Source: Aliidiomarina sedimenti (lineage in GTDB: Bacteria; Pseudomonadota; Gammaproteobacteria; Enterobacterales; Alteromonadaceae). From it: 64,000 nucleotides of DNA. Below are positions 8,007-41,129 of the stretch, piece by piece. Position 1 is the first letter of the stretch. Every line of letters begins with the position of its first letter. Both the position numbers and the translations under genes were made by a program. The DNA is taken from the NCBI RefSeq assembly GCF_003986955.1, contig NZ_PIPN01000001.1, positions 1 through 64,000 on the forward strand, in the 5' to 3' direction. The notes beneath the pieces were generated by a model. The model was not told the DNA's origin, made no database searches, and worked only from the letters and a program-made list of their open reading frames with translations.

Positions 8007-8048
8007 TGCCGTCTGCCGGCCTCCCACGAACTAAGTTAAGCAAAAGTC

Positions 8049-8068: not shown

Positions 8069-8093
8069 GGCTTTTAACGAGGCTATGCTATTC

Positions 8094-8113
8094 ATGTTAA
8101 GTATTTTTAACAT
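8094..8113. promoter_or_regulatory. Palindromic operator candidate 2 of the XRE operon
   Basis: ATGTTAAGTATTTTTAACAT has perfect 7-bp arms (ATGTTAA/TTAACAT) and is closely related to the site at 8049-8068. The pair (centres 45 bp apart) brackets the likely promoter. Confidence 0.6.
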
Positions 8114-8163
8114 TAAGGGCATGTTTGCTTATCAGCGCTAACGAATGAATGGAGAGCACAAAG

Positions 8164-8586
8164 ATGGCATTTCAAGAGAAATCAGCCTGGATTATGCTGG
8201 GCATACTGCTGGTGTTGGCGGCCGGCTACTTTATTCAGGTAGGGCAACTTTCAGCGGCTGCGGGTGAAGTTATAAATCCGCAATTGGCAGCGGTGGTTAA
8301 ATTTACTGTCGCGATTATTGTCTGGTCAGTCATTAGCCATGTCGCCTTAGCGCTGTTTTGGCCGAAAGATGCACAGCAAAAACTGGATGAACGCGAGCGC
8401 CGTATTCATGACAGAGCAGGGCATTTGTCGGGCCTGGTGCTGGGCTTTGGTCTGGTCACAGCACTCGGCTACTTCCTTGTTATAGGAAATGCCAACGTGT
8501 TGTTCTACATGGGGTTTGCGTCGCTTATTCTGAGTCAGCTTAGCGAGTATGTGTTCCGTATTTTCAATTATCGACGTTCATTTTAG
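8164..8586 (+). CDS. Four-helix inner-membrane protein paired with an XRE regulator
   Basis: About 140 residues. Four hydrophobic segments are visible: AWIMLGILLVLAAGYFI, AVVKFTVAIIVWSVISHVAL, HLSGLVLGFGLVTALGYFLV and a C-terminal one around FYMGFASLILSQ. A strongly charged loop (DAQQKLDERERRIHDRAGH) lies between helices 2 and 3. This layout resembles small membrane proteins commonly encoded just before an XRE-type regulator; function unknown. The ATG at 8164 is preferred to 8149 because GGAGAG lies 7 nt before it. The next gene starts 8 nt after the stop, and two palindromes upstream probably control both. Confidence 0.7.
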   Translation: MAFQEKSAWIMLGILLVLAAGYFIQVGQLSAAAGEVINPQLAAVVKFTVAIIVWSVISHVALALFWPKDAQQKLDERERRIHDRAGHLSGLVLGFGLVTALGYFLVIGNANVLFYMGFASLILSQLSEYVFRIFNYRRSF

Positions 8587-8594
8587 GGAGCATG

Positions 8595-8813
8595 ATGGCT
8601 ACTACTCTGCCGATACGAAACCAGGTTAAGGCAATGCGCGAAGCGCACGGCAACATGACTCAGGCTGAGCTTGGCGATGCCGTCGGCGTGACCCGCCAGA
8701 CAGTGGCCGCGATTGAGCAGCGCCGCTACTCTCCGTCACTGGAAACTGCGTTTCGGATGGCCAGTGTATTTGGTTGCCGGCTGGACGATCTATTTGAATA
8801 CGAAGGCGATTAA
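8595..8813 (+). CDS. XRE-family helix-turn-helix transcriptional regulator
   Basis: About 72 residues, essentially one HTH_3 domain. TQAELGDAVGVTRQTVAAIE holds the two HTH helices, followed by the family-typical PSLETAFRMASVFGCRLDDLF. This compact YozG/YvaO-like type normally represses or activates its own operon. Two ATGs stand in tandem after AGGGAG; the second (8595) has the better spacing. The palindromes at 8049-8068 and 8094-8113 are the obvious candidate binding sites. It is probably co-transcribed with the membrane protein before it, whose signal or target is unknown. Confidence 0.88.
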   Translation: MATTLPIRNQVKAMREAHGNMTQAELGDAVGVTRQTVAAIEQRRYSPSLETAFRMASVFGCRLDDLFEYEGD

Positions 8814-8850
8814 CGCTACACGACGCTCACTGAACCATCAGACAACGACG

Positions 8851-9681
8851 TCATCGTTCAATGAGGTGGCGCAGCGTCGGTTCGATATGCACCTGAAGGC
8901 GTAAGTCGGCAATATCATCGGCGCGGGTCTTGCCAATATTAAGCAGTGCCAGCGGTTGTTGTGCCTGATGGGCCTGACGTGCAAAGCGAAAACCGGAAAA
9001 GACCATCAGCGACGAACCAATCACCAACAGACCGCGGCTGTTAGCCAGCGCCTGCTGCGCTTGTTCGACCCGGGCACGGGGTACATTGTCGCCAAAATAG
9101 ACCACATCAGGCTTAAGAATACCGCCACATGCCGTGCAATCAGGCACCAGAAAGTCACTGAAGTCCCCTTCAAGATGTGAATCACCGTCAGCCCCTACCT
9201 CCGGGGTCATGTCCGCATAGTGGGTGTTGAGCGCCAGGCAGCGTTCGTGCATGTGCAGACGCGGGCTTCTCTGGCCGCATTCCATACACAGCATAGCGTT
9301 GGCGTCACCATGTAAGTCAATCACCTGGCTCCCGCCCGCGCGTTGATGCAGGCCATCGACGTTTTGCGTGATAATGGTTCCGACGAGCCCCTGTTGTTGC
9401 CAGGTCGCCAACGCTGTATGCGCTGAATTTGGTTTGGCCCGGTATAAAGTCGGCCAGCCATGCAGGCTGCGCGCCCAGTATCGTTGCCGCGCTGGGGCAC
9501 TGCTCATAAATTCCTGGTGCTGCATCGGTGGTGCTTTTTTCCACGCGCCCTGGCTGTCGCGATAATCCGGAATACCGGAATCAGTGCTGATCCCAGCGCC
9601 GGTGAGTACGGTCAACGGCTCTTGCTGGCGCAGTAAATGGAACAGTTCGTCCGCCGCCTCGGCGATAGTGTTTATATGCAT
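8851..9681 (-). CDS. Sir2-family NAD-dependent protein deacylase
   Basis: 276 residues, a complete sirtuin. The NAD-binding GAGIS motif appears as TGAGISTDSGIPDYRDSQG (about 26-44), the catalytic TQNVDGLHQRAG near 105 and the histidine in IDLHGDA. Four zinc cysteines are present (CMEC near 132, CTAC near 182), and GGILKPDVVYFGDNVP and GSSLMVFSG complete the fold. The PDYRDSQG form and a long insert between the cysteine pairs place it nearer class II (SIRT4-like) bacterial sirtuins than short E. coli CobB. It removes acyl groups from lysines with NAD consumption; targets cannot be read from context. It is convergent with the XRE gene. Confidence 0.92.
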   Translation of the reverse strand: MHINTIAEAADELFHLLRQQEPLTVLTGAGISTDSGIPDYRDSQGAWKKAPPMQHQEFMSSAPARQRYWARSLHGWPTLYRAKPNSAHTALATWQQQGLVGTIITQNVDGLHQRAGGSQVIDLHGDANAMLCMECGQRSPRLHMHERCLALNTHYADMTPEVGADGDSHLEGDFSDFLVPDCTACGGILKPDVVYFGDNVPRARVEQAQQALANSRGLLVIGSSLMVFSGFRFARQAHQAQQPLALLNIGKTRADDIADLRLQVHIEPTLRHLIER

Positions 9682-9825
9682 ACCATCTCACTTCATGCTG
9701 GCTCTGAGTTTTTTTCATAGTGCCAAGCATAGGCGTAAGTTTGAAGCTTTTTGCCTGGTTTGGTTGCCAGACCGGTGTAAACGACTGCATGATAGAGCAA
9801 TTATTTGACAACATTGAGTCAGGCC

Positions 9826-11331
9826 ATGAACTTTTCAAAGATAAAATTTCCGGCAGTTGCTGCATTCGCTTTGAGCGTTGGAGCTACTGCCAGCGCTGGT
9901 ATAGCGAATGCCAGTGAGGATAAAACCGATGCCACGTTGGATGCATACGCAGCCGGTTATATTAGTAATTTTGTCTGTAGTGCAGTGTTTAACTCCGCTA
10001 GCAATAGTGCAGACAATGGCCCCAGCGTTAATAAAACACTGGAGCAGATAACCGAACATGAGTTAACCGGTATCTATGACGTCGTGGAAACGAGAATCCA
10101 TGATTTGTTAGAGCGAGGGGCGTTGACCATTGACGACGACACCCGCTCGGTGTCTGTCGCTTATGCGTCGGATTCGGCCGCACAAGGCATGCCACCGCGG
10201 TTAAGTGTCTGGCGCCCGGCGCTCGGCTGTGTCGACTTGCCGGTCGGCGCAGAGGCGGAGGCGGCAGCTCATGTCGACGGCCTGATGGGGGACTTAGCCA
10301 CAACCCAACACCCGGCAACGGACTCCGGCGAACCCTGGCAAACGCATGCGGATCTGAATGGCACATCGGGTAATGCTGAGCTTGATCAGGTGGTCGAGTT
10401 GGCCTTTAGTGATCACTATGGGTCTGGTGCGCGAACCTCTGCGGTCCTTATTGCAAGCCCGGATGACATCCTTAGCGAGCATTACCTTGATGGCTTTACC
10501 CCAACGACATCCCAACGCACCTGGTCGGTGGCCAAAAGTATCGGAGCGAGTGTGGTCGGGGCTGCCGTGCAGCAGGATCTTGTCGATGTTAACGACGAAG
10601 CAGGCCTTGCCGCCTGGTCGCATCCGGCTGACCCACGCCAGCGAATTACTCTTCAGCATTTGCTTCATATGAGCTCTGGCCTGGACAGTAATCAGGCAGG
10701 CAACCGCACTGACCGTATTTACATTGGTGGCGGCACAGTGGCTGACCAGGCGGTTGGTAACTCGCTGGAAAGCATTCCCGGTCAGCGCTGGAAGTATGCC
10801 AACAACGACACCATGCTGGCGTTACGGTCACTGCGCGAACGTTTTGAATCAGTTCAGGATTACCTGGCGTTTCCGTTCACAGCAGTGCTGCATAAAATAG
10901 GTATGCGACATACGTATCTGGAAGCCGACTGGCAGGGCGATTTCATTTTGTCGTCTCAGGTATGGACCACGTCACGTGACTTAGCGCGTCTGGGAGTTTT
11001 GCATTTACAGCAGGGGCAATGGAATGGTGAGCAAATCCTGCCGCAGGACTGGCTGCAGTATGTTTCGACCCCGTCACCAGCACAGCCTCCCACTCCAAAT
11101 AGTCGCGGCGATGTGGTGCCTGGTTATGGAGCCCAGTGGTGGCTGTTCAATGACCGTATAAGCGGCATACCGGATGACACCATCGCCGCACGCGGTAACC
11201 GTGGACAATTCCTGATTATCGTCCCAGGCGAGGATCTGGTTATCGTGCGCCGCGGCTACGACATTGCCGGTGAACCAGGCTTCGATGAGATTCAGTTTAC
11301 CCGGGACGTACTGGCGGCGTTGGGCAAATAA
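9826..11331 (+). CDS. Exported serine hydrolase, beta-lactamase (class C) fold
   Basis: About 501 residues. A signal peptide is visible (FPAVAAFALSVGATASAGIANA). The active-site SxxK is in TWSVAKSIGAS (serine nucleophile, near residue 245), and a Tyr-x-Asn motif is in WKYANNDTML. Downstream come GYGAQWWLFN and RGNRGQFLIIVPGEDLVIV, typical of the final strands of beta-lactamase/6-aminohexanoate-dimer-hydrolase-type enzymes. These act in the periplasm on esters, amides or peptides; the substrate is not predictable, and a true beta-lactamase role is not implied. A TTG at 9805 is also open, but the ATG at 9826 gives a clean signal peptide. Confidence 0.85.
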   Translation: MNFSKIKFPAVAAFALSVGATASAGIANASEDKTDATLDAYAAGYISNFVCSAVFNSASNSADNGPSVNKTLEQITEHELTGIYDVVETRIHDLLERGALTIDDDTRSVSVAYASDSAAQGMPPRLSVWRPALGCVDLPVGAEAEAAAHVDGLMGDLATTQHPATDSGEPWQTHADLNGTSGNAELDQVVELAFSDHYGSGARTSAVLIASPDDILSEHYLDGFTPTTSQRTWSVAKSIGASVVGAAVQQDLVDVNDEAGLAAWSHPADPRQRITLQHLLHMSSGLDSNQAGNRTDRIYIGGGTVADQAVGNSLESIPGQRWKYANNDTMLALRSLRERFESVQDYLAFPFTAVLHKIGMRHTYLEADWQGDFILSSQVWTTSRDLARLGVLHLQQGQWNGEQILPQDWLQYVSTPSPAQPPTPNSRGDVVPGYGAQWWLFNDRISGIPDDTIAARGNRGQFLIIVPGEDLVIVRRGYDIAGEPGFDEIQFTRDVLAALGK

Positions 11332-11341
11332 CTCAGAAAAA

Positions 11342-11399
11342 GAAGTGCAACTTCTGTTAAGCGTGGACAGTCGGCAAAGCTTACAGAAGTTGCTCTTCG
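11342..11399. terminator. Long inverted repeat between convergent genes
   Basis: GCAACTTCTGTTAAGC (11347-11362) pairs with GCTTACAGAAGTTGC (11379-11393), with one bulged base. The arms extend outward through GAAG/CTTC with a mismatch, giving about 20 bp of stem. It sits between two converging genes and is probably a shared transcript-end structure, although neither side has a good U-tract. Confidence 0.5.
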
Positions 11400-11431
11400 A
11401 GCTTCATTTATTACTTTAACCAGCAGGCTTT

Positions 11432-12280
11432 CTAATTGTAGCTGCTAAGGCTGGCTATAAACTTGCTGAGCTCACGTTGAAAACGCTCGGGAGCAACGTG
11501 GAAGGTGTCGGCGTGGGTGCCATCTTCAACAATGTATAGCTGGGACCCCGGGTGATTTGAAGCCGCGTAAAGCTGCTCACCCATCGACACCGGTATATTG
11601 CTGTCGTTCTCTCCATGAATAACCAGAAGTGGCTTGTTCAGCAAACTGACAGCACTGGTGTTGTCGAAACTGATAGCCTGGTCGACATCAACGCTGGCGA
11701 GCCTGCCTAGAGTATTACGCTGGCGAAAAACCTCAATCATTTCACTGTCCGTGGTCACTGCACCCTCAAGAACAATACCCTGAACCCGTGGCTCCTGGCT
11801 AATGTCCATTGCCATCACAGAGCCAAGCGAGAGCCCGTAGACAATAACATCGGACTCGGCAGGCAGCGCATTGATAATGCTGCTGGCATCGTCACGCATG
11901 GCACTAAAGCTGGCGTCGCCGCTACTCAGGCCGAAACCCTGGTAATCAATCGCGATGATGTTGTAATTTAATTCGGCGAGACTTTGCAGTAGCCCAAACC
12001 AGGGCTGCAGGGTCATGTTCAGTGCATTACCATGCAGCACCAGTATGGTTGGCTGGTTTGGCTCACGCTCCAGGGTCAGTGTATGCAGCTGTTCGCCGCT
12101 CTCGGTTGCTGTAAAAGACTCCTGATACCCCGATTGCCCGGTAAGCAGGGCTAAATTGTCCGGGTCAATGTCGCTGCTGGGTGAAACTATCATCTGTTCG
12201 GTGACGGTAACTGAGCAGGCGGACAGCAACATAGCAGCGACAGCCAGTGCCGCCGCTTTACTACCAGATATGTATGCCAT
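11432..12280 (-). CDS. Alpha/beta-hydrolase lipoprotein
   Basis: 282 residues. A lipoprotein signal ends in the lipobox LLSAC (cysteine 22). An alpha/beta-hydrolase fold follows: oxyanion segment VLHGNALNMTLQPW, nucleophile elbow YGLSLGSVMA (GxSxG), a late acid region (LLVIHGENDSNIPV) and the catalytic histidine in EDGTHADTFH. This resembles the BEM46/serine-aminopeptidase-like hydrolases. The substrate is unknown; periplasmic or outer-membrane location is inferred from the lipobox. It follows the DUF885 gene by 42 bp on the same strand, so an operon is likely. Confidence 0.85.
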   Translation of the reverse strand: MAYISGSKAAALAVAAMLLSACSVTVTEQMIVSPSSDIDPDNLALLTGQSGYQESFTATESGEQLHTLTLEREPNQPTILVLHGNALNMTLQPWFGLLQSLAELNYNIIAIDYQGFGLSSGDASFSAMRDDASSIINALPAESDVIVYGLSLGSVMAMDISQEPRVQGIVLEGAVTTDSEMIEVFRQRNTLGRLASVDVDQAISFDNTSAVSLLNKPLLVIHGENDSNIPVSMGEQLYAASNHPGSQLYIVEDGTHADTFHVAPERFQRELSKFIASLSSYN

Positions 12281-12322
12281 TGATTAAGTTCCTTTTACTG
12301 GGTTGTATGCATAACGATTGCT

Positions 12323-14137
12323 TTATTCGGCTAACTCACTGTCTATCCATTGCTGCACTTTACGCTCGAGCATCGGCAGCGGCATAGCGCCACCTCCGAG
12401 TACCGCGTCATGAAAGCCGCGAATATCGAAGTCGTCGCCCAATGCGGCTTCTGCCTCACGGCGTAACTGCTGGATTTTTATCATGCCAATTTTAAATGAC
12501 GTCGCCTGACCCGGCAGAGTCATGTAGCGTTCGATTTCGGTTTGGATGGCGCCTGCTGAGACCGGGGTCGTGGTAGCGAAGTAGTCGATTGCTTGCTGGC
12601 GGGTCCAGCCTTTGCTGTGCAAGCCGGTATCGACCACTAAGCGTACCGCTCGCCAGAGTTCGGTGACCAGTTGTCCAAATTCAGAATAAGGGTCCTGATA
12701 GCCGCCCATTTCTTTGGCTAGCCATTCGGCATACAATGCCCATCCTTCGGTATAGACAGTAAACCGAGCCTGAGTACGAAAGTTAGCAATATCAGAGGCC
12801 TGCTGAGCCACCGAGATTTGTTGATGATGGCCAGGAACCCCCTCATGGTAGGCAATTGCTTCCAGCTCATTCTTTGCCATGGCCTGCATATCAATCAGGT
12901 GGGCGTAAAAAATTCCCGGACGTCCATTGTGTGGTGACCCGCGCATGTAATGCTGTGGAGCGCCGGCCTGTTCGCGGTAGGCTTCGACCCGGCGAACTTC
13001 TAACTCTATTTCAGGCAACAAACCAAAAAACTCTGGCATTTGCTCGTTCATCGTTGCCAGGTAGTCACGCGCCTGCTGCAGATAGGCTTCACGACCCTGG
13101 TCCGTATTTGGATAAAAAAACTGCTCGTCTTCGCGGAAGAACTGAAAGAAAGCGTCCAGATCACCCTCAAATCCAACTCGTTTACGGACATCCTCCATTT
13201 CAGCGGTAAGGCGGGCGACTTCGTCGAGGCCGATCTGATGGATCTGGTCGGCATTCAGATCCGTGGTGGTATAAAACCACAACAGGTATTCATAGTAGGC
13301 ATCACCGCCCTGATGGCGGCTAATGCCTTCGGGGTTCTCAAGCGTATTCGGCAAATCGTCCTGTAACCAGCTAATTAAATTTTGATACGCAGGATAGAGT
13401 GCGTCGGTCAGGGCCGCTTGGGTATCTTCAAGCAATAAATCGGCACCACGCTCGTTGACACTATTCGTCTCGAGCAAATTAGCGACCTTAGTTTGCGCAT
13501 CCTGCCAAATCGGCGAGTCAGAACCTTCCTCAAATGGCACACCTGTTATCACGCCTTCGGCCTGTCGAATGACTTCATTGTAGGCAAAACGGGGAGGGCG
13601 TAATCCTTGCTCGGCTCGTTGCTGTGCTATTTCAACCAGCTCGTTGATACGCCCGGCAATAGCGCGAATACGTTTATTGTAGTCGCCCATATCCTGCATC
13701 GAGCGCACCTCGTGACTGCCAATTAAGACCTGCGGCAAGGTCGACTGTGGGCCTATCATTTGCTCAAACACATATTCTAACTGACGGAATTCCGCGCCAC
13801 GCTGCATTTGTTCATACTGGTATGCCCACAGATCATATGAGAGTTTCTCGTCGTCACTGAGCTGGTCGTAATCGAACATCCGCTGCATTTGTTCGACGCT
13901 GGAACCTTTCCATTCCAGCTGCTCGACAAATGCCGCATCAGAAACTTCGTCTATCTCGCCATGACGCGAGTGATCGCCACTACGTGACAATTGCACCGGG
14001 CTAAATTCAAGTTGACGCGCATATTGCTGATCCAGCCATTCGGTCAGCGTTATTTCATCGCTGGCAGATTCCGGGGTGCCGCACGCTGATACAAACACAG
14101 CGACTAGCGCGATGCCAATTGAGCTCAGGTAACGCAT
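12323..14137 (-). CDS. DUF885-family putative metallopeptidase, lipoprotein
   Basis: 604 residues. The signal ends in a lipobox (AVFVSAC, cysteine 19). The body has DUF885 features: helical architecture, the repeated acidic-helix motif LEDTQAALTDALYPAYQNLI and the zinc-site motif YHEGVPGHHQQ near residue 430. Late signatures RFTVYTEGWALYAEWLA and LPGQATSFKIG complete the pattern. The HEGxPGHH helix resembles the HExxH helix of M32/M3-like peptidases, and several marine homologues are annotated as exported peptidases or hydrolases. It probably acts on peptides in the periplasm. It is upstream of, and likely co-transcribed with, the lipoprotein hydrolase. Confidence 0.88.
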   Translation of the reverse strand: MRYLSSIGIALVAVFVSACGTPESASDEITLTEWLDQQYARQLEFSPVQLSRSGDHSRHGEIDEVSDAAFVEQLEWKGSSVEQMQRMFDYDQLSDDEKLSYDLWAYQYEQMQRGAEFRQLEYVFEQMIGPQSTLPQVLIGSHEVRSMQDMGDYNKRIRAIAGRINELVEIAQQRAEQGLRPPRFAYNEVIRQAEGVITGVPFEEGSDSPIWQDAQTKVANLLETNSVNERGADLLLEDTQAALTDALYPAYQNLISWLQDDLPNTLENPEGISRHQGGDAYYEYLLWFYTTTDLNADQIHQIGLDEVARLTAEMEDVRKRVGFEGDLDAFFQFFREDEQFFYPNTDQGREAYLQQARDYLATMNEQMPEFFGLLPEIELEVRRVEAYREQAGAPQHYMRGSPHNGRPGIFYAHLIDMQAMAKNELEAIAYHEGVPGHHQQISVAQQASDIANFRTQARFTVYTEGWALYAEWLAKEMGGYQDPYSEFGQLVTELWRAVRLVVDTGLHSKGWTRQQAIDYFATTTPVSAGAIQTEIERYMTLPGQATSFKIGMIKIQQLRREAEAALGDDFDIRGFHDAVLGGGAMPLPMLERKVQQWIDSELAE

Positions 14138-31659: not shown

Positions 31660-34332
31660 ATGGCAAGTCAAGACAGTCTCGGCACATTGAGTTCGCTCGA
31701 GGTAGGGGAAGCCACTTACCATTACTACAGCCTGCCTAAAGCAGCAGAAAAGCTGGGGGATATCAAAAAATTACCAGTCTCATTAAAAGTGCTGTTAGAG
31801 AATCTATTGCGTTTCGAGGATGGAGATACCGTCACTCGCGATGACTTGCAGGCCATGGTTGACTGGCTTGGCAGCCGTTCCTCAACGCGTGAAATCGCCT
31901 ACCGTCCTGCGCGGGTATTGATGCAGGACTTTACCGGGGTGCCTGCGGTAGTTGACCTCGCTGCGATGCGTGATGCAGTGGCTAAAGCGGGGTTAAATGC
32001 AGACAAGATAAACCCATTGTCGGCGGTCGATCTGGTGATCGACCATTCGGTTATGGTGGATAAATTTGGTTCGCCACAAGCCTTTGAAAAGAATGTTGAA
32101 ATTGAAATGGAGCGTAATAAAGAGCGTTACCAGTTTCTTCGCTGGGGGCAGAAAGCCTTCGATAATTTCCGCGTGGTACCACCAGGCACCGGTATTTGCC
32201 ATCAGGTTAACCTTGAGTACCTGGCTAAAGCCGTGTGGACTAAAGAAGAAGATGGCAAGACATTTGCCTACCCGGACACGCTGGTTGGAACTGATTCGCA
32301 TACCACAATGATCAACGGCCTCGGCGTGCTCGGTTGGGGCGTGGGCGGCATTGAAGCAGAAGCCGCCATGCTTGGTCAGCCGGTCTCAATGCTGATCCCT
32401 GAAGTGGTCGGGTTCCGCCTTAGCGGTAAATTAAGCGAGGGCGTAACGGCGACTGACCTGGTCCTGACTGTAACCCAGATGCTTCGTGCGCAAGGGGTGG
32501 TGGGCAAGTTCGTTGAATTTTACGGTCCTGGTTTAGCGGATTTACCGCTCGCTGACCGTGCCACCATCGCCAATATGGCACCTGAATATGGCGCTACCTG
32601 TGGCTTCTTCCCGGTCGATGAAGAAACCCTGACCTACATGCGCCTGACCGGTCGTGACGAAGAGCAGATTGATCTGGTGAAAGCTTACTCACAGGCGCAG
32701 GGCACCTGGCGCGACGATTCGGTAGAACCGGAATTTACCGAAACTCTTGAATTGAATATGGCCGATGTCGAGCCGTCGTTAGCGGGGCCGAAGCGTCCGC
32801 AGGACCGTGTCTCGCTAAGTGGCCTCAACGATGCGTTTGAATTGCTGATGGAATCGTCCGGGGTCAGTACCTCAGATGAAACTAAGGTGCCGATTGAAGG
32901 CAGCGACCAGACATTAACTCATGGTGACGTGGTTATTGCTGCGATAACCTCCTGTACCAATACTTCAAACCCCAGTGTAATGATGGCCGCAGGACTGGTC
33001 GCGAAGAAAGCGCTGGAAAAAGGCCTGCAAAGTAAGCCCTGGGTAAAAACATCGTTGGCACCCGGCTCGAAAGTGGTGACTGATTACCTTGCGGCAGCAG
33101 GTTTGGACCAGTACCTGGATGAACTGGGTTTTGACCTGGTTGGCTACGGCTGCACTACCTGTATTGGTAACTCAGGCCCGTTACCGGATGAAATCAGTAA
33201 AGCGGTTGATGAGGGCGACTTGATCGTGTCGTCGGTGTTGTCAGGTAACCGTAACTTTGAAGGCCGTATTCACCCGCAAGTGAAAGCCAACTGGCTGGCG
33301 TCACCACCGCTGGTGGTGGCATACGCGCTGGCTGGATCGACGCGTCTTGATTTGAGTAAAGATCCACTGGGTGAAGATAAAGACGGCAATCCAGTCTATC
33401 TGAAAGATGTCTGGCCGACTGAGGCAGAAATTGCCGAGCAGGTGAAACTGGTCGCCAGTGATATGTTCCGTAAAGAATACGGTGCGACGCTATTTGAAGG
33501 GGATGAACACTGGCAGAGCCTGAATATCCCGGATAGCCTTACCTACGAGTGGCAGGATGACTCCACCTATGTCGCCAACCCACCATTCTTCGAAGGCATC
33601 GACAAGCCACTCAAGGCACAGGAAGATGTGACAGACGCCTATGTGCTGGCACGTTTTGGCGACTCGATCACCACCGACCATATTTCGCCGGCCGGCGCCA
33701 TCAAACCAAGTGCTCCGGCAGGTGAGTACCTGCAAAGCAAAGGGGTTGCAATTAAAGACTTCAACTCCTACGGGTCGCGTCGCGGTAATCACGAAGTGAT
33801 GATGCGCGGTACCTTTGCCAACATCCGGATTCGTAACCTGATGGTCGAAGGCAGTGAAGGTGGGGTCACACGCCATGTGCCCAGTGGTGATGAAATGTCG
33901 ATCTATGACGCAGCCATGCGCTATCAGGAAGAGAAAACACCACTGGTGATTTTAGCGGGCAAAGAGTACGGCACCGGGTCCAGTCGCGACTGGGCAGCGA
34001 AAGGTACGCGCTTACTTGGCGTACGAGCCGTGATTGCACGAAGCTTTGAACGTATTCACCGCTCCAACCTGGTTGGCATGGGCGTACTGCCGCTGCAATT
34101 TAAGGACGGCGAAAGTGCAGATAGCCTTGGCTTAACCGGCGAAGAGAAAATTTCGCTGAGCGGCACCCGGGACATTAAAGCGGGTCAAAGCGTGCAGGCA
34201 ACAGCCAAGCGCAGCAATGGTGAAGAGATTTCTTTTGAGCTGCTTTGCCGCATAGATACTGCCAATGAAGTTGAGTACTACAAGAACGGTGGTATTTTGC
34301 ACTATGTGTTGCGTCAGCTAATCGCAGCGTAA
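31660..34332 (+). CDS. acnA: Aconitate hydratase A
   Basis: 890 residues, full-length AcnA/IRP type. The three 4Fe-4S cysteines lie in AAITSCTNTSNPSVM and GYGCTTCIGNSGPLPDE (near residue 435 and 500). Other marks are DFTGVPAVVDLAAMRDA, GTDSHTTMINGLGVLGWGVG and, in the swivel domain, FNSYGSRRGNHEVMMRGTFAN and the substrate-binding YGTGSSRDWAAKG. It interconverts citrate and isocitrate in the TCA cycle. It starts after a strong ribosome site (GAGGAGAGGGTT-ATG), is monocistronic, and is closed by a terminator. Confidence 0.97.
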   Translation: MASQDSLGTLSSLEVGEATYHYYSLPKAAEKLGDIKKLPVSLKVLLENLLRFEDGDTVTRDDLQAMVDWLGSRSSTREIAYRPARVLMQDFTGVPAVVDLAAMRDAVAKAGLNADKINPLSAVDLVIDHSVMVDKFGSPQAFEKNVEIEMERNKERYQFLRWGQKAFDNFRVVPPGTGICHQVNLEYLAKAVWTKEEDGKTFAYPDTLVGTDSHTTMINGLGVLGWGVGGIEAEAAMLGQPVSMLIPEVVGFRLSGKLSEGVTATDLVLTVTQMLRAQGVVGKFVEFYGPGLADLPLADRATIANMAPEYGATCGFFPVDEETLTYMRLTGRDEEQIDLVKAYSQAQGTWRDDSVEPEFTETLELNMADVEPSLAGPKRPQDRVSLSGLNDAFELLMESSGVSTSDETKVPIEGSDQTLTHGDVVIAAITSCTNTSNPSVMMAAGLVAKKALEKGLQSKPWVKTSLAPGSKVVTDYLAAAGLDQYLDELGFDLVGYGCTTCIGNSGPLPDEISKAVDEGDLIVSSVLSGNRNFEGRIHPQVKANWLASPPLVVAYALAGSTRLDLSKDPLGEDKDGNPVYLKDVWPTEAEIAEQVKLVASDMFRKEYGATLFEGDEHWQSLNIPDSLTYEWQDDSTYVANPPFFEGIDKPLKAQEDVTDAYVLARFGDSITTDHISPAGAIKPSAPAGEYLQSKGVAIKDFNSYGSRRGNHEVMMRGTFANIRIRNLMVEGSEGGVTRHVPSGDEMSIYDAAMRYQEEKTPLVILAGKEYGTGSSRDWAAKGTRLLGVRAVIARSFERIHRSNLVGMGVLPLQFKDGESADSLGLTGEEKISLSGTRDIKAGQSVQATAKRSNGEEISFELLCRIDTANEVEYYKNGGILHYVLRQLIAA

Positions 34333-34345
34333 ACTTAAACGAACA

Positions 34346-34379
34346 GCAAGGCAGGCTTCGACCTGCCTTGCGTCGTTTT
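34346..34379 (+). terminator. Rho-independent terminator after acnA
   Basis: GCAAGGCAGG (34346-34355) pairs with CCTGCCTTGC (34362-34371) around CTTCGA, followed by GTCGTTTT. It separates acnA from the next operon. Confidence 0.88.
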
Positions 34380-34452
34380 CAGGCTGCACGATTTGTTGAA
34401 CAAATGTAACCAGCTTGATAGCCTGAAGGCTTTTATTCGCGAGCGGTATGCC

Positions 34453-34932
34453 ATGCAAAAACTGCTATTTGGAATCCTCGTCGTGATGAGCACTTTGGGC
34501 TCAGGCCTTCTGCTATCCGGCGCCGCGCTCGCTGACACCGCTCAATCCGGGTTAACATTGCAGGGGCCGGATAAGGTTCGCGAGGGGTACTTTCAGCTCC
34601 GTGTGGATGGCGTTGCGGAGGAGGATACCTTTGTTATTGAGCTTGCGTCCTCCGCGCAGTTTGCAACGGTTGAAAACACCTTTGCTCCCTTAGGCGCCTT
34701 TCGCCAGCTATCCCTTAGCGGTTTCGATGATGGCCGTTATTACTTCCGTGCCGTCCATTCCGGGACGGGTGAATACAGCAATATTCACCAACTGGATGTG
34801 GTTCATTACCCGCTGTGGCAGGCATTAAGTCTGTTTGTCCTTGGGGCACTGCTCTTTATCAGCCTGCTTGTGACCATGCTGATACTGACCCGGCGAGCCG
34901 CTCGCAATCACAAGGAGCCTCGTCATGGATGA
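34453..34932 (+). CDS. Exported beta-domain protein with C-terminal transmembrane helix (operon gene 1)
   Basis: About 159 residues. A signal peptide (FGILVVMSTLGSGLLLSGAALA) is followed by an extracytoplasmic domain of about 90 residues with fibronectin-III-like strand pattern (VIELASSAQFATVENTFAPL, DDGRYYFRAVHSGTGEYSNI). A C-terminal transmembrane helix (LFVLGALLFISLLVTMLIL) with a basic tail completes it. It would be held on the periplasmic side of the inner membrane. The ATG at 34453 is chosen over 34393 because it places the signal peptide at the N-terminus. The gene overlaps the following symporter gene by 8 bp, so an accessory or sensing role for the transporter is plausible. No family firmly recognised. 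Confidence 0.65.
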   Translation: MQKLLFGILVVMSTLGSGLLLSGAALADTAQSGLTLQGPDKVREGYFQLRVDGVAEEDTFVIELASSAQFATVENTFAPLGAFRQLSLSGFDDGRYYFRAVHSGTGEYSNIHQLDVVHYPLWQALSLFVLGALLFISLLVTMLILTRRAARNHKEPRHG

Positions 34933-36352
34933 ATTTGCCCTCGATGCCCGGGTCGGGTTTGCCATCATTGTCGTATTCGGACTAGCCTGGATAACCTTTG
35001 GCTGGTTTCTCGGGCGCAAGACCACTACCCATGAAGAATTCGCTTTGGCGGGACGCAACGTTGGGTTTGCATTTGCCTCCGCTACGGCGATGGCAACCTG
35101 GGTTACCAGCAACACCACTCTGGTTGCGCCGGAACTGACATTCCAGTTCGGTTTGTGGGGGATGGTGGGGTATTCGTTCGCCGCCCTCGGACTTATTTTG
35201 TTTGCGCCGATTTCAGCCCGAATTAAAACCTTGCTGCCAAATGGATATACCAGTGGGGATTTTATCCGTCTGCGCTTTGGTTTTACCGCCTGGTGTTTCT
35301 TCATGGTGATTTCGTTTGTCTATGCGCTGGGTTGGTTAGTGAGCCTGGGAATGGCCGGGGGGATTTTGCTGCAGGCGCTGAGCGGCCTTGATTATCACAT
35401 CGGAATGTCGGCGATTTTATTTATTTGCGTACTCTACACCCTGTTTGGCGGGTTACGCGCTGTGATTGCCACCGACTTTATTCAGGCACTGATTATTATC
35501 ACCGGTGTGGTTCTGGTCGCGGTGTTATTGCTGACCAATGTCGGCATGCCTGAGATCCACCAGAACCTTGCAGATCACCATCCGCGACTGCTCGACCTGC
35601 TATTCCCGGCCGCCATTATGTTTTTATTTAATAATATCTTTTTTGGGTTAGGGGAAATCTTCCATTCCAACGTGTGGTGGTCAAGAGCCCTCGCATTTAA
35701 ACAGAAAGTTGCGTTCAGAGCCTTTTTAACCGGTGGCCTGTTATGGCTCCCCATCCCGATTGTGACTGGTTTCGTCGCTTTGGCGGCACCGCAGTTGGGA
35801 ATTTTTCCCTCCAGTCCGGATATGGTCGGGCCGACGGTGGCCGCTGCGGTACTCGGCACCGCGGGCGCCGTGGTGGTTTTTATTGTGGTTTTTTCGGCGC
35901 TGGCATCGAGCCTGGATTCACTGCTTGCTGCGACCTCAGACTTGTTAACCCGCGATATTTATCACAAACACCTTAACCGAAAAGCCAACGATAAAACCTT
36001 GTTTCGTGCCAATCGCATCGCCATTGCCGGACTCGGCGTCGTGACCTGGATTCTGTGTTTGCCACAAATTACCACGCTGGCCGCGTTGTTGAATTTCACC
36101 GGTGCCTTTGTCGCCAGCACGATCTGGCCCATTGTAGTCGGTCTTTATCAGCCACGGCTGGAAGGCAAATATGCGGCCGGGGCAATGGCGGCGGGCACGT
36201 TATGCGGCCTGGCTGGTTACTTTTTGATTGGTTTTTACGTCGCCGCGCTGACTGCATGTCTGGTCTCAGCGGTGATAACAGCGATTGGCGTCTATATGAG
36301 TAAAAACCATTTTGACTGGGATCTGTTAAATGAGAAGGAGCACACAGAATGA
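34925..36352 (+). CDS. Sodium:solute symporter (SSS) family transporter (operon gene 2)
   Basis: 475 residues, about 12-13 transmembrane helices. Family marks are the N-terminal FGWFLGRKTTTHEEFALAGR, ATAMATWVTSNTTLVAPE, the loop TSGDFIRLRFG, LYTLFGGLRAVIATDFIQAL near residue 180, and FSALASSLDSLLAATSDLLT with DIY near 340. SSS proteins import sugars, amino acids, carboxylates or ureides with sodium. The substrate is not predictable from sequence; the downstream carbamoyltransferase and amidotransferase point to an amino acid or ureido compound (inference). A strong AAGGAG precedes the ATG. Its stop overlaps a 39-codon gene (ATGA). Confidence 0.87.
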   Translation: MDEFALDARVGFAIIVVFGLAWITFGWFLGRKTTTHEEFALAGRNVGFAFASATAMATWVTSNTTLVAPELTFQFGLWGMVGYSFAALGLILFAPISARIKTLLPNGYTSGDFIRLRFGFTAWCFFMVISFVYALGWLVSLGMAGGILLQALSGLDYHIGMSAILFICVLYTLFGGLRAVIATDFIQALIIITGVVLVAVLLLTNVGMPEIHQNLADHHPRLLDLLFPAAIMFLFNNIFFGLGEIFHSNVWWSRALAFKQKVAFRAFLTGGLLWLPIPIVTGFVALAAPQLGIFPSSPDMVGPTVAAAVLGTAGAVVVFIVVFSALASSLDSLLAATSDLLTRDIYHKHLNRKANDKTLFRANRIAIAGLGVVTWILCLPQITTLAALLNFTGAFVASTIWPIVVGLYQPRLEGKYAAGAMAAGTLCGLAGYFLIGFYVAALTACLVSAVITAIGVYMSKNHFDWDLLNEKEHTE

Positions 36353-36468
36353 TCTCCTTAACGGCATTAACCCTGATGGTATGGGCAGCAACCATTGCAG
36401 GTGCTTTAGTACCTGTGGTGCTGCTGGCGCTATTTTTTATTGACTACAAAGCAAAGACGATCTGGTGA
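36349..36468 (+). CDS. 39-residue membrane peptide between symporter and carbamoyltransferase (operon gene 3)
   Basis: The reading frame MISLTALTLMVWAATIAGAL... ends ...FIDYKAKTIW. One long hydrophobic helix covers about residues 4-31, with a short basic cytoplasmic-looking tail. Its ATG overlaps the symporter stop (ATGA) and has GAAGGAG about 10 nt upstream. The carbamoyltransferase ATG follows 4 bp after its stop, so it sits in an unbroken chain of coupled genes. Small single-helix partners are known for some SSS transporters (for example those encoded with acetate and pantothenate symporters); such a role here is inference. It is shorter than usual annotation cut-offs. Confidence 0.6.
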   Translation: MISLTALTLMVWAATIAGALVPVVLLALFFIDYKAKTIW

Positions 36469-36472
36469 CTAT

Positions 36473-37543
36473 ATGAATGTAAGTGATGCCTCGTTTGACC
36501 GCGAGAGGCCTGATGTATACGGAGATGCACATCCTAAAGCGCTACTGCGAAGCGTCCAGGAAGATGGCGACTATCTGGTAAAACTGTCCAACCAGCATAT
36601 TGTGTCGTCGGATCAGTTTTCGCGGGATACCCTGATCCAGCTGTTCCGCCTGGCGGCCAAGTATGAGAGCAATCCGACCCGGTTCCGTTCGCCGCTGCAG
36701 GGAAAGATCCTCATCAGCGCCTTCTATGAACCAAGCACCCGCACCCGGCTGTCGTTTGAAAGCGCCTGGCACCGCTTGGGCGGCGATATTATGTCAATTA
36801 CCGACCGTTCCACCACCGGGATCGCAAAAGGTGAGTGTCTGGATGATGTCGCGGAAATGTTCAACAACTATGGCGACTGCGTGGTGCTGCGCGATAATAA
36901 CGGCGAGTCATTGGAAAAAATGATGGATACACTGCGTATTCCGATCGTCAACGCGGGGAATGGACGCGATGAACATCCGACTCAGGCGATGGCGGATCTG
37001 TATGCGATCTTCAAATGGCGTCCTGAGCTGCTCGCGGCAGAGGTGCCTGAAGAGCGCAGAATTCGTATTGGGGTGATAGGTATACCGGGGCGCATGCGCA
37101 CGGTGCGAAGCTTGTTAAAGAGCCTTGCGGTGTTTCATACCAGCATCAAAGAAGTGGTCATTATCCATGATGGCAGTGATGACGAGGGGCTGTTTGACCC
37201 CGGGCAGCGTGAAGAGCTTGAGGAGCGCGGGTTAACTATACGCCTGGCGAATGAGCTCGACGAGGTGCTACCGACGCTGGATGTAACCTATATCAACGCC
37301 ATTGCCTGGGAAGGCGACGGTTTTGAAACCTATGGGAAGAAATTCATTTTGAATGCCGACTCGCCGCTTAAGCAGGACGGTATCATTTTGCATCCTTTGG
37401 CGCGTGGCGAAGAGCTGGCCAAGGATCTCGATAATACGTCGCACAACTGGTACTTCAGCCAGGCGCGTGGGGCGGTATTTTTACGCATGGCACTGTTAAC
37501 CTGCATGGTAGAGCGTGCAGAACGTGTCATTGATGTAGTTTGA
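36473..37543 (+). CDS. Aspartate/ornithine-carbamoyltransferase-family enzyme with altered acceptor site (operon gene 4)
   Basis: 356 residues, against about 310 for E. coli PyrB. The carbamoyl-phosphate pocket is intact: FYEPSTRTRLSFESAWHRLG (STRTR), the lysine in GIAKGECLDD, the arginine in CVVLRDNN, and NAGNGRDEHPTQAMADLY (HPTQ). The arginine of the RTV motif is kept (GRMRTVRSL). However, the segment aligned with E. coli YMTRVQKE, whose Arg229 and Gln231 hold aspartate, reads YINAIAWE, and HPLPR reads HPLAR. The chemistry is therefore probably carbamoyl transfer to an amine other than aspartate. It has a 35-residue N-terminal extension and lies between the membrane-peptide gene and an asparagine-synthase-like gene. 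Calling it pyrB would be misleading. Confidence 0.8.
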   Translation: MNVSDASFDRERPDVYGDAHPKALLRSVQEDGDYLVKLSNQHIVSSDQFSRDTLIQLFRLAAKYESNPTRFRSPLQGKILISAFYEPSTRTRLSFESAWHRLGGDIMSITDRSTTGIAKGECLDDVAEMFNNYGDCVVLRDNNGESLEKMMDTLRIPIVNAGNGRDEHPTQAMADLYAIFKWRPELLAAEVPEERRIRIGVIGIPGRMRTVRSLLKSLAVFHTSIKEVVIIHDGSDDEGLFDPGQREELEERGLTIRLANELDEVLPTLDVTYINAIAWEGDGFETYGKKFILNADSPLKQDGIILHPLARGEELAKDLDNTSHNWYFSQARGAVFLRMALLTCMVERAERVIDVV

Positions 37544-37560
37544 CAGAGGACTGAACCCGT

Positions 37561-39576
37561 ATGTGCGGAATTGCAGGTGTTTTTTACAACCAACCTAAAC
37601 ACATGATTGAGCCACAAGTCTTAGTCAATATGGCGGCCATTATGCACCACCGTGGCCCTGATGGATTCGGTTATAAAACCATAGCCGGGCAGGGCGTTGG
37701 TTTTTCCCATGCTCGTTTGTCCATTATCGATTTGGTCGGTGACCGCGGTCGGCAACCGTTTTTATCGGACGACAAACGTTTGATGCTGGCCCATAACGGC
37801 GAGTTCTATGACTTTAAACGTATCCGGGCGCAGTTAACGGCTGAAGGAGCCCGCTTTAATACCAAGAGTGATTCTGAAATTATCATGCAGCTGTATCCGC
37901 GGTTTGGCATGCAAGGCATGTTGCCCCATTTACGGGGTGAGTTTGCGTTCTCTCTGTATGATCAGGAAGAAGATACCCTGTTTCTGGTGCGCGACCGCTT
38001 TGGGGTTAAGCCGTTGTACTACACCCAAACTGAAAAAGGCATTGTGTTCGGTTCTGAGCTGAAAACCATTTTTGCCCATCCGGAAGTGCCACGCAAATTC
38101 TCAGATGAGGGTGTTTACCATCAGCTGATTCAGACCATGGTGCCCGGTACCACTGCGTTTGAAGGCATTCGTCAGGTGATGCCCGGGCATGTGGTCAGTG
38201 TTAAACGGGTCAACGGTAAGTTACATATCGAAGAGAGCAAATACTGGGACATGGAGTTTCCCCTTGAACATGAACATGACAAAGACGACAAACGTGCTGA
38301 CGAGTACGTTGAAGGGGTTCGCCGGGAGTTGTTAGAAGCGGTTCAACACCGTCTGACTGCTGATGTACCTGTGGGGTGCTATTTGTCGGGGGGCATTGAT
38401 TCGTGCTCGATACTTGGGCTATCGGCTGCAGCCAGTCAGGAGCCGGTGAAAGCCTTCACCATTGGTTTCGATTCAGCAGCCTATGATGAAACGCCAATAG
38501 CCCGCGAAATGGCCGAGGCCACGGACGCTGACCATCATGTGATGACGCTTGATTCGAATGACCTTTATGATCACTTTGAAACTACGCTCTGGCATACCGA
38601 GCGCACCATCTATAACACCCTGGGTGTGGCAAAATACCTGATGAGCCAGCAGGTTCGTGATGTTGGCTACAAGGTGGTGATGACTGGCGAAGGTGCTGAT
38701 GAATTATTCGCTGGTTATCCGTCATTCCGCAAAGATCTGTTTATGTACGGACTGGACCATCTGCCACCGGAAGAGCGTGCTAACTGGCAGGCGATGCTGG
38801 AAAAGAACAACAAGCTATTCAAAGGTGCCATGCTGGCACGGGAAGAATTTGTCAGCGATGCTTTCGTAGCTAAAATGGGCTTTACCCCCAGTTGCTTGCA
38901 ACCCTGGCTGTCCTGCAGCGGTTTTGCAGATAAGCTGCTGGCAAAAGATCGGCGCCAACGGATGCAGGGCTATGACGCTGGTAAGGCGATTGCTGATACC
39001 CTGGATGCGGACATGCTGGCAGAACGGCATCCGCTCGATAAAGCCCAGTATGTGTGGACTAAAACCATGCTCGAAGGGCAGATCCTGACCTGGGGTGGTG
39101 ACCGGGTTGATATGGCAAACTCGATGGAAGCGCGGCCAGCATTTTTGGACCATAAACTGGCCGAATACGCATTTAAGATCCCGCCTCATTTACGCATTCG
39201 CGAGAACAAAGAGAAGTGGGTCTTGCGTGAGGCAATGAAAGGGCTGTTGCCGGAAACTCTGTATAAACGCGAGAAATTCGCGTTTATGGCACCTCCGGCA
39301 CATACCGATCCAAAAAAATGGGCTGCTATGCGAGCCTTAGCGAAAAAATACCTCAACAAAGAGTCTGTTGAAGAGGCGGGTTTGCTCGATCACGATGAAG
39401 TCAATGCGCTGTTTGCATTGCATGATGCGGATGATGCGCCGGCAGAGCTGCAGGTGCAACTGGACGCGGTGATTAACCATATGCTGGGGGTTCAGATCCT
39501 GCACAAGCAGTTTGTCGCAACGGATCTGCCAGCAAAAGCCGCAGCACGGGCTGACGAACTTGGTTGGCACGCTTAA
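37561..39576 (+). CDS. Asparagine-synthase (glutamine-hydrolysing) family amidotransferase (operon gene 5)
   Basis: 671 residues, longer than E. coli AsnB (554). The class-II glutaminase domain begins with the catalytic cysteine (MCGIAGVFYNQ), followed by MHHRGPDGFGY, ARLSIIDLVGDRGRQPF and HNGEFYDF. The synthetase domain has the pyrophosphate loop CYLSGGIDSCSILGLS near residue 280, FTIGFDSAAYDETPIARE and VVMTGEGADELFAGYPSFRK. The C-terminal third contains DRVDMANSMEARPAFLDHKL. These enzymes activate a carboxylate with ATP and amidate it using glutamine ammonia. Position 17 bp behind the carbamoyltransferase suggests the two act on one metabolite rather than on ordinary aspartate. A terminator follows. 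Confidence 0.88.
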   Translation: MCGIAGVFYNQPKHMIEPQVLVNMAAIMHHRGPDGFGYKTIAGQGVGFSHARLSIIDLVGDRGRQPFLSDDKRLMLAHNGEFYDFKRIRAQLTAEGARFNTKSDSEIIMQLYPRFGMQGMLPHLRGEFAFSLYDQEEDTLFLVRDRFGVKPLYYTQTEKGIVFGSELKTIFAHPEVPRKFSDEGVYHQLIQTMVPGTTAFEGIRQVMPGHVVSVKRVNGKLHIEESKYWDMEFPLEHEHDKDDKRADEYVEGVRRELLEAVQHRLTADVPVGCYLSGGIDSCSILGLSAAASQEPVKAFTIGFDSAAYDETPIAREMAEATDADHHVMTLDSNDLYDHFETTLWHTERTIYNTLGVAKYLMSQQVRDVGYKVVMTGEGADELFAGYPSFRKDLFMYGLDHLPPEERANWQAMLEKNNKLFKGAMLAREEFVSDAFVAKMGFTPSCLQPWLSCSGFADKLLAKDRRQRMQGYDAGKAIADTLDADMLAERHPLDKAQYVWTKTMLEGQILTWGGDRVDMANSMEARPAFLDHKLAEYAFKIPPHLRIRENKEKWVLREAMKGLLPETLYKREKFAFMAPPAHTDPKKWAAMRALAKKYLNKESVEEAGLLDHDEVNALFALHDADDAPAELQVQLDAVINHMLGVQILHKQFVATDLPAKAAARADELGWHA

Positions 39577-39631
39577 CCGCTGCAAGACATCTGTTCGAAA
39601 TAGTCGTTGAAAACATTTGTCGAACACATGG

Positions 39632-39657
39632 AAAAAGCCCCGCGAGGGGCTTTTTTT
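39632..39657 (+). terminator. Rho-independent terminator closing the five-gene operon
   Basis: AAAAAGCCCC (39632-39641) pairs with GGGGCTTTTT (39646-39655) around a GCGA tetraloop and continues into a T-run. Confidence 0.92.
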
Positions 39658-39700
39658 GTGCCTTTAGAGCGCTATTCATGGATCGACTTTTCTTTTTAAG

Positions 39701-39812: not shown

Positions 39813-41129
39813 ATGATAACGACTATTTCCTTTCATCCCGCGAAGCTGGCTGTGGCAATCAGTGCGGTTCTGCTGCTGGCGGCCTGTGAAGAAACCAGTA
39901 TTCAGCCAATCGAGCATGATGAAGACCATGACCATGCGGATGACCACGAGCATGAGGACAGTGCCACTGGCCGTCTGATTTTCATGGAATACGGTGAGGA
40001 TGCAACGCGTGCTTTTGTCTATGACCTCGAGGCCAATGAATTACTGGAATCGTTTGATCTGCAAAGCCCAGGGCGTTTGCTTGCAAGTCCGGATTATCGC
40101 TATGCAGTTGCCATTCAGCGCGATGCCGGGGTAACCCGCTTTGTAGACAGCGGCTATGAAACTGAACCTCATGGCGATCATGCACATTACAATGAGCTGG
40201 CTCCGGCATTATCTGGTTTCACTTTGGCAGGAGAGCGCCCGACTCATTACGATTTTTATCATCACCGGGGAGCGCTTTTTTATGATGGAGCTGAGGGGAT
40301 CGCCTCTAAAATTGAGGTTTTTTCGGACCAGAGTATTGTCGAGGAACAAGTACTGGCGGAGCTGGAGTTAAGCAGTTCGATGCATGGTGCTGCTGAAATC
40401 CGTGAAGATTATTTGTTCACCGCCAATCGCAGCGACGCAACCGCGACAGGTTTGCCCGATTCGGTTGAAGTCTACGAGCGTCATTCTGATCACTTCGATT
40501 TCGTCCAGGGGTTTGAAAATGAGTGTGTAGATTTACATGGCAGCGCGCTGAATGAACAGCATGTAGCCTTTGGCTGCGGTGATGGCGTGTTGCTGCTGTC
40601 TGAAGCTGAAGATGGCAGCTTCGTGAGTGAGAAACTAAGCATGCCGGAAACGCTCGGAGGTCGTGTCGGATCACTGTGGGGACATGAAGAGAGCCCGTAT
40701 TTTATCGGCAGTGCAGGGCAGAACATGGTATTGATCGACACGTCGACTGGGGAAAGCTGGCAGCTTGACTGGAAAGTTGACGAGGCGCGGGAATTTGGCT
40801 CTGTTGCGTTTAACTATACAGGCGATCGCTTTGCTGTTCTCGACACTGCAGGCGACATGACTATTTTCCGTTTACGCGAGCAGGGCCATGAGAGTTATCC
40901 GTTTGAGTTGCAAAGTCAGTTCACGGTGGTGTCTGATACTCATGAAATGGCGCTTGCTATGACAGTGAACCAGGTTAACCACCAGGCGTATATTGCTGAC
41001 CCGGGGCATCAGCGAATTACTGTGGTTGATTTACATGATGGCGAAGTGGTAGAGCAGCGTGACTTAGATGTGGAGCCGGGTAGCTTAATTTGGACTGGGT
41101 TTACCTCTGAAGAATCTCACGATCATTAA
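39813..41129 (+). CDS. aztD: AztD-like periplasmic zinc metallochaperone, lipoprotein
   Basis: 438 residues. The signal sequence has a lipobox-like LLLAAC (cysteine near residue 26). A His/Asp-rich metal-binding stretch follows at once (HDEDHDHADDHEHED). The remainder is a beta-propeller-type repeat protein (for example GRLIFMEYGEDATRAFVYDL, LLASPDYRYAVAIQRDAG, AFNYTG-like VAFNYTGDRFAVLDTAGD, AYIADPGHQRITVVDLHDG) with inner histidines such as SSSMHGAAEIR and CVDLHGSALNEQHVAFGC. This is the architecture of AztD, which passes zinc to the AztC binding protein of an ABC importer. No aztABC genes are adjacent. The Zur-box-like sites upstream strengthen the zinc assignment. Confidence 0.78.
   Translation: MITTISFHPAKLAVAISAVLLLAACEETSIQPIEHDEDHDHADDHEHEDSATGRLIFMEYGEDATRAFVYDLEANELLESFDLQSPGRLLASPDYRYAVAIQRDAGVTRFVDSGYETEPHGDHAHYNELAPALSGFTLAGERPTHYDFYHHRGALFYDGAEGIASKIEVFSDQSIVEEQVLAELELSSSMHGAAEIREDYLFTANRSDATATGLPDSVEVYERHSDHFDFVQGFENECVDLHGSALNEQHVAFGCGDGVLLLSEAEDGSFVSEKLSMPETLGGRVGSLWGHEESPYFIGSAGQNMVLIDTSTGESWQLDWKVDEAREFGSVAFNYTGDRFAVLDTAGDMTIFRLREQGHESYPFELQSQFTVVSDTHEMALAMTVNQVNHQAYIADPGHQRITVVDLHDGEVVEQRDLDVEPGSLIWTGFTSEESHDH

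Follow-up and report, generated by a model that had tools for sequence, protein, structure and literature searches.

A conserved carbamoyltransferase–amidotransferase cluster as candidate genes for the compatible solute carbamoyl-glutamine amide

We describe a five-gene operon of Aliidiomarina sedimenti that joins a divergent carbamoyltransferase to an amidotransferase of the asparagine-synthase superfamily. From sequence comparisons, we infer that the chemistry predicted for this enzyme pair matches that of an orphan compatible solute, carbamoyl-glutamine amide (CGA). At a rough probability of 0.72, the two enzymes make CGA, while a symporter encoded beside them, with its small partner proteins, probably takes CGA up. 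The operon lies in a 64,000-nucleotide stretch of DNA, hereafter called the window, and judging by its relatives it is a variant of a cluster with a wide distribution.

In the proposed pathway, the carbamoyltransferase would move a carbamoyl group from carbamoyl phosphate to the alpha-amine of glutamine, giving N-carbamoylglutamine. The AsnB-like enzyme would then activate the free alpha-carboxylate with ATP and amidate it with glutamine-derived ammonia. Together these steps would remove both charges and thus yield a neutral, nitrogen-rich solute. The sodium:solute symporter (SSS), aided by a 39-residue peptide and a periplasmic FN3-like protein, would recover CGA that has leaked out or is present in the environment. 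Where hydrolases are present, glutamine would be recovered: an isochorismatase-type enzyme could take off the 1-amide, and an M20 carbamoylase could cleave the carbamoyl group. We lean towards the broader reading that the full cluster (FN3-like protein, carbamoylase, amidase, symporter, micropeptide, carbamoyltransferase and amide synthetase) would form a complete system to make, recapture and recycle CGA, with the carbamoyltransferase acting as a glutamine alpha-N-carbamoyltransferase.

Operon architecture

The operon and its flanking signals comprise the following features of the window.

34346–34371, + strand: stem-loop 3' of acnA, likely the acnA terminator (10 pairs, fold z −3.9)
34453–34932, + strand: gene 1, 159-aa secreted FN3/Ig-like protein (open reading frame)
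34925–36352, + strand: gene 2, 475-aa sodium:solute symporter (open reading frame, PF00474)
36349–36468, + strand: gene 3, 39-aa one-helix membrane peptide (open reading frame, homologue conservation)
36473–37543, + strand: gene 4, 356-aa ATCase-fold carbamoyltransferase (PF02729, PF00185)
37561–39576, + strand: gene 5, 671-aa AsnB-like glutamine-dependent amidotransferase (PF00733, PF13522)
about 39627–39660, + strand: hairpin with a T run, operon terminator (−21.2 kcal/mol, z −5.8)

A first-pass annotation of this DNA had described five genes on the + strand, and all five open reading frames were located where it placed them. The tight junctions it reported follow from the coordinates: neighbouring genes overlap by 8 bp and then 4 bp at the first two junctions and stand 4 bp and 17 bp apart at the other two. 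Folding also bears out its terminators, one for acnA ahead of the operon and a strong one behind it; the latter hairpin was identified by its folding z-score and is absent from the list given by the pattern scan. That scan returned no sigma-70-like site in 34200–38542, either internal or before gene 1, and several weak terminator-like stems within genes (a total of 13, compared with 6.4 in shuffled sequence).

The window genome is very near Aliidiomarina soli by the sequence of this locus: carbamoyltransferase, amidotransferase and peptide are 100% identical (rounded), the symporter 99% and the gene 1 protein 94%. Directly after the operon, at 39813–41129, lies a lipoprotein-like gene whose product has a His/Asp/Glu-rich N-terminus and is, we assume, perhaps a periplasmic metal (zinc) chaperone.

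Linkage and distribution

The first-pass annotation had named separate occurrence of the genes in close relatives as the outcome that would speak against its proposal. We found conserved linkage instead, in 78 of the best 80 loci (of 576 relatives), and co-occurrence in 20 of 20 genomes. Among 369 genomes of the class, the carbamoyltransferase occurs in 23 (the window's own included) and the amidotransferase in 20, every one of which also carries the carbamoyltransferase (hypergeometric 3e-30). The assemblies account for the three genomes that have a carbamoyltransferase and no amidotransferase match: the contig of G090 stops at the carbamoyltransferase, that of G392 ends within the following gene, and in G297 that following gene is split in two frames. 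The pieces in G392 and G297 are 65–66% identical to the amidotransferase.

To characterize gene order we used named loci, taking from 576 confirmed relatives the best 80 by similarity to the protein of Ectothiorhodospira marismortui DSM 4180. This sample leans to the DSM 4180 lineage and includes many metagenome-assembled genomes (MAGs), and because the loci are related to one another they do not amount to 80 independent cases. The pair lies in one cluster on the same strand in 78 of these 80, with the amidotransferase directly downstream of the carbamoyltransferase in 71 and two hydrolase genes between them in seven. The exceptions are L088, where the contig ends, and the locus of Thiorhodospira sibirica (L083); that genome does encode the amidotransferase (65%), but apart from the carbamoyltransferase. 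In the seven loci with inserted hydrolases (L112, L114, L145, L149, L151, L153 and L154), the order is carbamoyltransferase, M20 gene, cysteine hydrolase, amidotransferase; six are from spirochaete MAGs, where misbinning is possible, and one is from an unassigned MAG.

Among the genomes closest to that of the window, the carbamoyltransferase occurs in 11 of 58: the window's own, 8 of 16 from the same genus and 2 of 17 from other genera of the family. The suggested search across Alteromonadales was too narrowly framed: in the rest of the order, none of 24 sampled genomes carries the gene. Carriers beyond the order include many other Gammaproteobacteria and some spirochaete MAGs. We take the named carriers to be mostly marine, hypersaline or soda-lake taxa.

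A separate family of carbamoyltransferases

The window genome encodes three OTCace proteins, one PyrB-like, one ArgF-like and, as the third, the operon carbamoyltransferase. The last was called divergent in the first-pass annotation, and aptly: 29 cluster members share 57–93% identity with one another, against 30–36% with E. coli PyrB and the genome's own PyrB, and 20–26% with ArgI and its own ArgF. By these identities the cluster carbamoyltransferase is a separate family. It scores 185.6 bits with TIGR00670 (PyrB; curated cut-off 236.95) and 84.9 bits with TIGR00658 (ornithine carbamoyltransferase; cut-off 280.85), below both. Its predicted structure (pLDDT 85, pTM 0.88) matches ATCases best (1ml4, E 4.7e-24). 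Of plasmid records, 139 match the carbamoyltransferase, every one at less than 60% identity; 15 of these reach at most 33.6%, and the annotated ones among the 15 are PyrB.

Active-site residues point to an unusual acceptor. In E. coli ATCase numbering, E50, S52, T53, R54, T55, R56, K84, R105, H134, Q137, R167, T168 and R296 are kept in 29 of 29 members. This includes all seven residues (S52, T53, R54, T55, R105, H134 and Q137) that we take to form the carbamoyl-phosphate site of ATCase. R229 and Q231, which presumably contact the side-chain carboxylate of aspartate, are replaced throughout, R229 by Ala (18) or Ser (11) and Q231 by Ala (26) or Ser (3). In addition, K232 is replaced by Trp, R234 by a gap and P268 by Ala. 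The SMG loop of ornithine carbamoyltransferase is missing, with INAIAW at that segment, and nearly all 29 members, DSM 4180 included, have Y-I-N-[AS]-I-[AS]-W as their pocket segment.

R167, which in ATCase presumably helps to hold the aspartate alpha-carboxylate, is Asn at the aligned position of OTCases. Its retention together with the loss of R229 and Q231 suggests that the carbamoyl acceptor is an alpha-amino acid with an uncharged side chain. The retained R167 is also why we place carbamoylation before amidation. These residues and the scores below both cut-offs rule out a spare ATCase or OTCase. We propose that the enzyme is an L-glutamine alpha-N-carbamoyltransferase, to our knowledge an activity with no assigned gene.

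The amidotransferase lies outside the AsnO clade

Gene 5 is, by its sequence features, a glutamine-dependent member of the asparagine-synthase superfamily. Its product scores 445.8 bits with TIGR01536 (cut-off 267.1), and its translation begins MCG (glutaminase Cys2) and contains an SGGIDS loop (SGGxDS, the PP-loop). We propose that it acts as an N-carbamoylglutamine amide synthetase.

Sagot et al. reportedly found in 2010 that N-acetylglutaminylglutamine amide (NAGGN), another glutamine-derived solute, is made by AsnO and Ngg. The window amidotransferase scores 316.1 bits with the NAGGN AsnO family (TIGR03104), and two of its cluster relatives 290.2 and 300.7, all below the cut-off of 570.1; its XrtA-family score is 403.3, below 816.9. 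A tree of 27 sequences unites all 19 cluster amidotransferases in one group (100/100) apart from Sinorhizobium AsnO, with which the window genome's second AsnB-type protein groups. We use only the unity of the 19, as long branches (E. coli AsnB, paralogues) may meet in this tree; an Asn_synthase paralogue of DSM 4180 (L178) was left out. A Sinorhizobium plasmid gene (L179) considered as the AsnO reference proved not to be AsnO, and true AsnO was used instead.

A NAGGN-type amidotransferase is encoded elsewhere in the window genome (G000:C3:336378-337406; L037:772-2559), with a TIGR03104 score of 842.4 bits and no acetyltransferase gene within 1.5 kb on either side. The genome thus probably holds both a NAGGN-type enzyme and the cluster amidotransferase, and may contain a second pathway to a neutral glutamine osmolyte, NAGGN. 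The five operon genes include no match to the GNAT acetyltransferase (Ngg) family. NAGGN synthesis by the operon is ruled out by the separate AsnO-type protein and by the position of the cluster enzyme in another clade.

The symporter and its small partners

The symporter passes the PF00474 cut-off (103.8 bits against 22.8) and falls below that of TIGR00813 (136 against 184). It is probably the importer of the solute. The preceding gene 1 encodes a protein with an N-terminal helix, an FN3/Ig-like domain and a C-terminal membrane helix (predicted structure pLDDT 90); its structural matches to FN3/Ig-like domains are weak, the best at E 1.2e-4. Neither this protein nor the 39-residue peptide matches any Pfam or NCBIfam family, with only chance-level hits up to E 10. 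Gene 1 is conserved as the opening gene of the cluster, and its product is perhaps a partner of the symporter.

Comparison of homologues indicates that the 39-residue peptide is a real gene product. It ends in D-x-K-x-K-x-x-W in the window genome and has six residues invariant across 13 homologues. Its dN/dS is 0.18–0.38 in those five of six comparisons in which dS was unsaturated, although these values are rough because dS is high. Across the named loci (best 80 of 576), where matches to the peptide and the FN3-like gene were accepted up to E 0.01, the peptide accompanies the symporter, except in the spirochaete locus L145, which has no peptide match. Loci that lack the symporter lack the peptide too, save that of Thiorhodospira sibirica (L083:9831-9950), which retains the micropeptide before the carbamoyltransferase despite loss of the symporter. 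The peptide is a candidate small subunit of the symporter.

Hydrolases and a channel gene in the extended cluster

In other lineages the operon adds an M20-type hydrolase and an isochorismatase-type cysteine hydrolase. To count its parts we used 67 loci (from the best 80 of 576) with long flanks, at least 4.5 kb upstream and at least 4 kb downstream. The symporter and the peptide each occur in 57 of these 67 loci, the FN3-like gene in 56, the M20 gene in 48 and the isochorismatase-type gene in 46. An MscS-type gene occurs in five, one of them weakly similar, and its product is perhaps a channel that serves as the release route of the solute. In L080–L082, L099, L144 and L056 (some Ectothiorhodospira and a few others), the MscS-type gene follows the amidotransferase.

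The M20 protein scores above cut-off with two groups, the hydantoinase/carbamoylase family and an allantoate amidohydrolase subfamily, and its next-best family, the N-carbamyl-L-glutamate amidohydrolase ErtE, lies below cut-off. By sequence, its closest solved structure is an N-carbamoyl-L-amino acid hydrolase, or L-carbamoylase (3n5f, E 1.4e-81). That its narrow name above cut-off is allantoate amidohydrolase, not carbamoylase, counts against the CGA reading. Distant similarity links the cysteine hydrolase to amidohydrolases that act on biuret, ureidoacrylate and N-carbamoylsarcosine. The two could be the tools wanted to dismantle a carbamoylated amino-acid amide.

Within the window's lineage, an M20 relative (44–48% identity) occurs in 8 of 10 genomes tested, with DSM 4180 left aside, and a close isochorismatase-type relative in only one of the 10 (G021, 56%). 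The window genome has its nearest M20 gene (45% identity) away from the operon and yielded no close isochorismatase-type partner. Two further genera of the family (L051:11106-12302 and L052:11270-12475) have an M20 gene next to the operon, in divergent orientation and with 48% identity to the cluster enzyme.

The CGA-producing species carries the enzyme pair

CGA was reportedly described by Galinski and Oren in 1991, in work said to have been done on the type strain. It is a glutamine whose amine bears a carbamoyl group and whose carboxylate is converted to an amide, according to PMC1224877, which is among the sources that describe it as an osmotic solute. It is reported from one species only, as a minor solute undetected by Raman. 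We found no gene assignment for CGA in the open-licence literature, in keeping with the first-pass view that the gene set belongs to an undescribed pathway.

We arrived at the producer through phototrophy, not similarity: reaction-centre genes occur in 2 of the 24 genomes that bear the family, both of one genus, and G377 is one of them. Its contig in the named scan is NZ_FOUO01000006.1, from a record labelled E. mobilis DSM 4180. FOUO00000000 is assigned in a table of PMC8877833 to the type strain E. marismortui DSM 4180, and DSM 4180T also appears under E. marismortui in PMC7824335. The first rank of the G377 protein is by construction, since it heads the alignment. Ectothiorhodospira marismortui DSM 4180, the type strain of the CGA species, thus carries the enzyme pair, in a locus (L076) that contains no symporter, peptide or FN3-like gene and is laid out as follows.

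7879–9165: M20 hydrolase
about 9162–9896: cysteine hydrolase
up to 11020: carbamoyltransferase
11068–13080: amidotransferase

DSM 4180 has three OTCace_N proteins. By motif, the other two are of the ornithine and aspartate types, and with these accounted for, the cluster enzyme is the candidate for a further carbamoylation. The amidation is less constrained, as five strong Asn_synthase matches, four besides the cluster amidotransferase, mean that another could perform it. Because CGA is known in one species, the link to the product rests on one organism, and as the DSM 4180 cluster has no symporter, CGA transport is deduced from linkage elsewhere.

Two options raised by the first-pass annotation gain a concrete form here. 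It had proposed modification of both the amine and the carboxylate of an amino-acid-like compound, which would be the chemistry of CGA. It had also listed a compatible solute among possible products, and the same two enzymes in the type strain of a CGA-making species point that way. PMC7824335 includes a genome survey that found no osmotic stress genes in Thiorhodospira sibirica and states that the species "magna" is without betaine synthesis; CGA is one of the solutes that the paper considers possible in such organisms. Both organisms carry the enzyme pair, with the two genes apart in T. sibirica.

Alternative readings

The same logic could serve another acceptor, an uncharged amino acid other than glutamine or a small peptide, in which case the window's lineage would make some other neutral solute. 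The visible change is the loss of ligands to a side-chain carboxylate, the residues do not single out glutamine, and at 62–66% identity to those of DSM 4180 the Idiomarina-group enzymes have room for a shift. However, the pocket segment is near-uniform across 29 members, DSM 4180 included, and CGA is the one known product of such chemistry in a carrier, so that we consider a different acceptor unlikely. CGA or a similar compound might also be mainly a store of nitrogen or carbamoyl groups. With four nitrogens per six carbons it would suit that role, and hydrolases that could release them occur in 48 and 46 of the 67 long-flank loci (from the best 80 of 576). Yet CGA is described as an osmotic solute, the named carriers are mostly marine, hypersaline or soda-lake taxa, and the MscS-type channel gene appears in 5 of the 67, one weakly similar. 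Storage as the main function is therefore a slimmer prospect still.

SSS relatives often import nutrients, and importer and hydrolases stand together in many clusters, as they would if the operon scavenged a carbamoylated or amidated nutrient that its enzymes mainly degrade. Against this, an ATP- and glutamine-dependent AsnB-type enzyme with Cys2 and PP-loop kept is a synthetase, and in the best 80 of 576 loci the synthetic genes are the constant core whereas hydrolases and symporter are lost in some lineages. We regard scavenging as very improbable. Automatic family names would by themselves fit a spare ATCase and a spare asparagine synthase joined by chance. The 20 of 20 co-occurrence, the linkage in 78 of the best 80 loci (of 576), the loss of R229 and Q231 in 29 of 29 members and the separate PyrB and ArgF of the window genome leave such a coincidence almost no credence.

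Implications

If the two enzymes do make CGA, genes could be assigned to a compatible solute that was described in 1991 and that the reviews consulted list without any. A compound known from one organism would become a marker readable from genomes, common among Gammaproteobacteria of marine, hypersaline and soda-lake habitats and among some spirochaetes. It would also offer a concrete answer for Thiorhodospira sibirica and similar organisms, given the missing osmotic stress genes. The ATCase fold would gain a new substrate class, and neutral glutamine osmolytes would have a second pathway of the AsnB type.

Comparison with known systems

The CGA system itself offers the most direct comparison: the producer's type strain has the same two enzymes, and the product requires one carbamoyl transfer and one amidation. 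Its cluster differs from that of the window in having two hydrolases and in lacking symporter, peptide and FN3-like gene. At the level of single enzymes, the carbamoyltransferase has its fold and carbamoyl-phosphate site in common with PyrB, but differs in its 30–36% identity, the loss of R229 and Q231, a shorter loop and the change of P268 to Ala. N-carbamoyl-L-amino acid hydrolases, ErtE and allantoate amidohydrolases belong to the same superfamily as the cluster M20 protein; unlike those hydrolases, it adjoins a synthesis pair, not genes for hydantoin, purine or ergothioneine breakdown.

By its logic, the nearest known system is NAGGN synthesis. There, too, a neutral osmolyte arises when an enzyme of the AsnB type converts the terminal carboxylate of an N-capped glutamine compound to an amide. 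The cap, partner enzyme and clade differ: NAGGN is an acetyl-capped dipeptide, whereas the cluster amidotransferase, which would act on a carbamoyl-capped glutamine, falls outside the AsnO clade.
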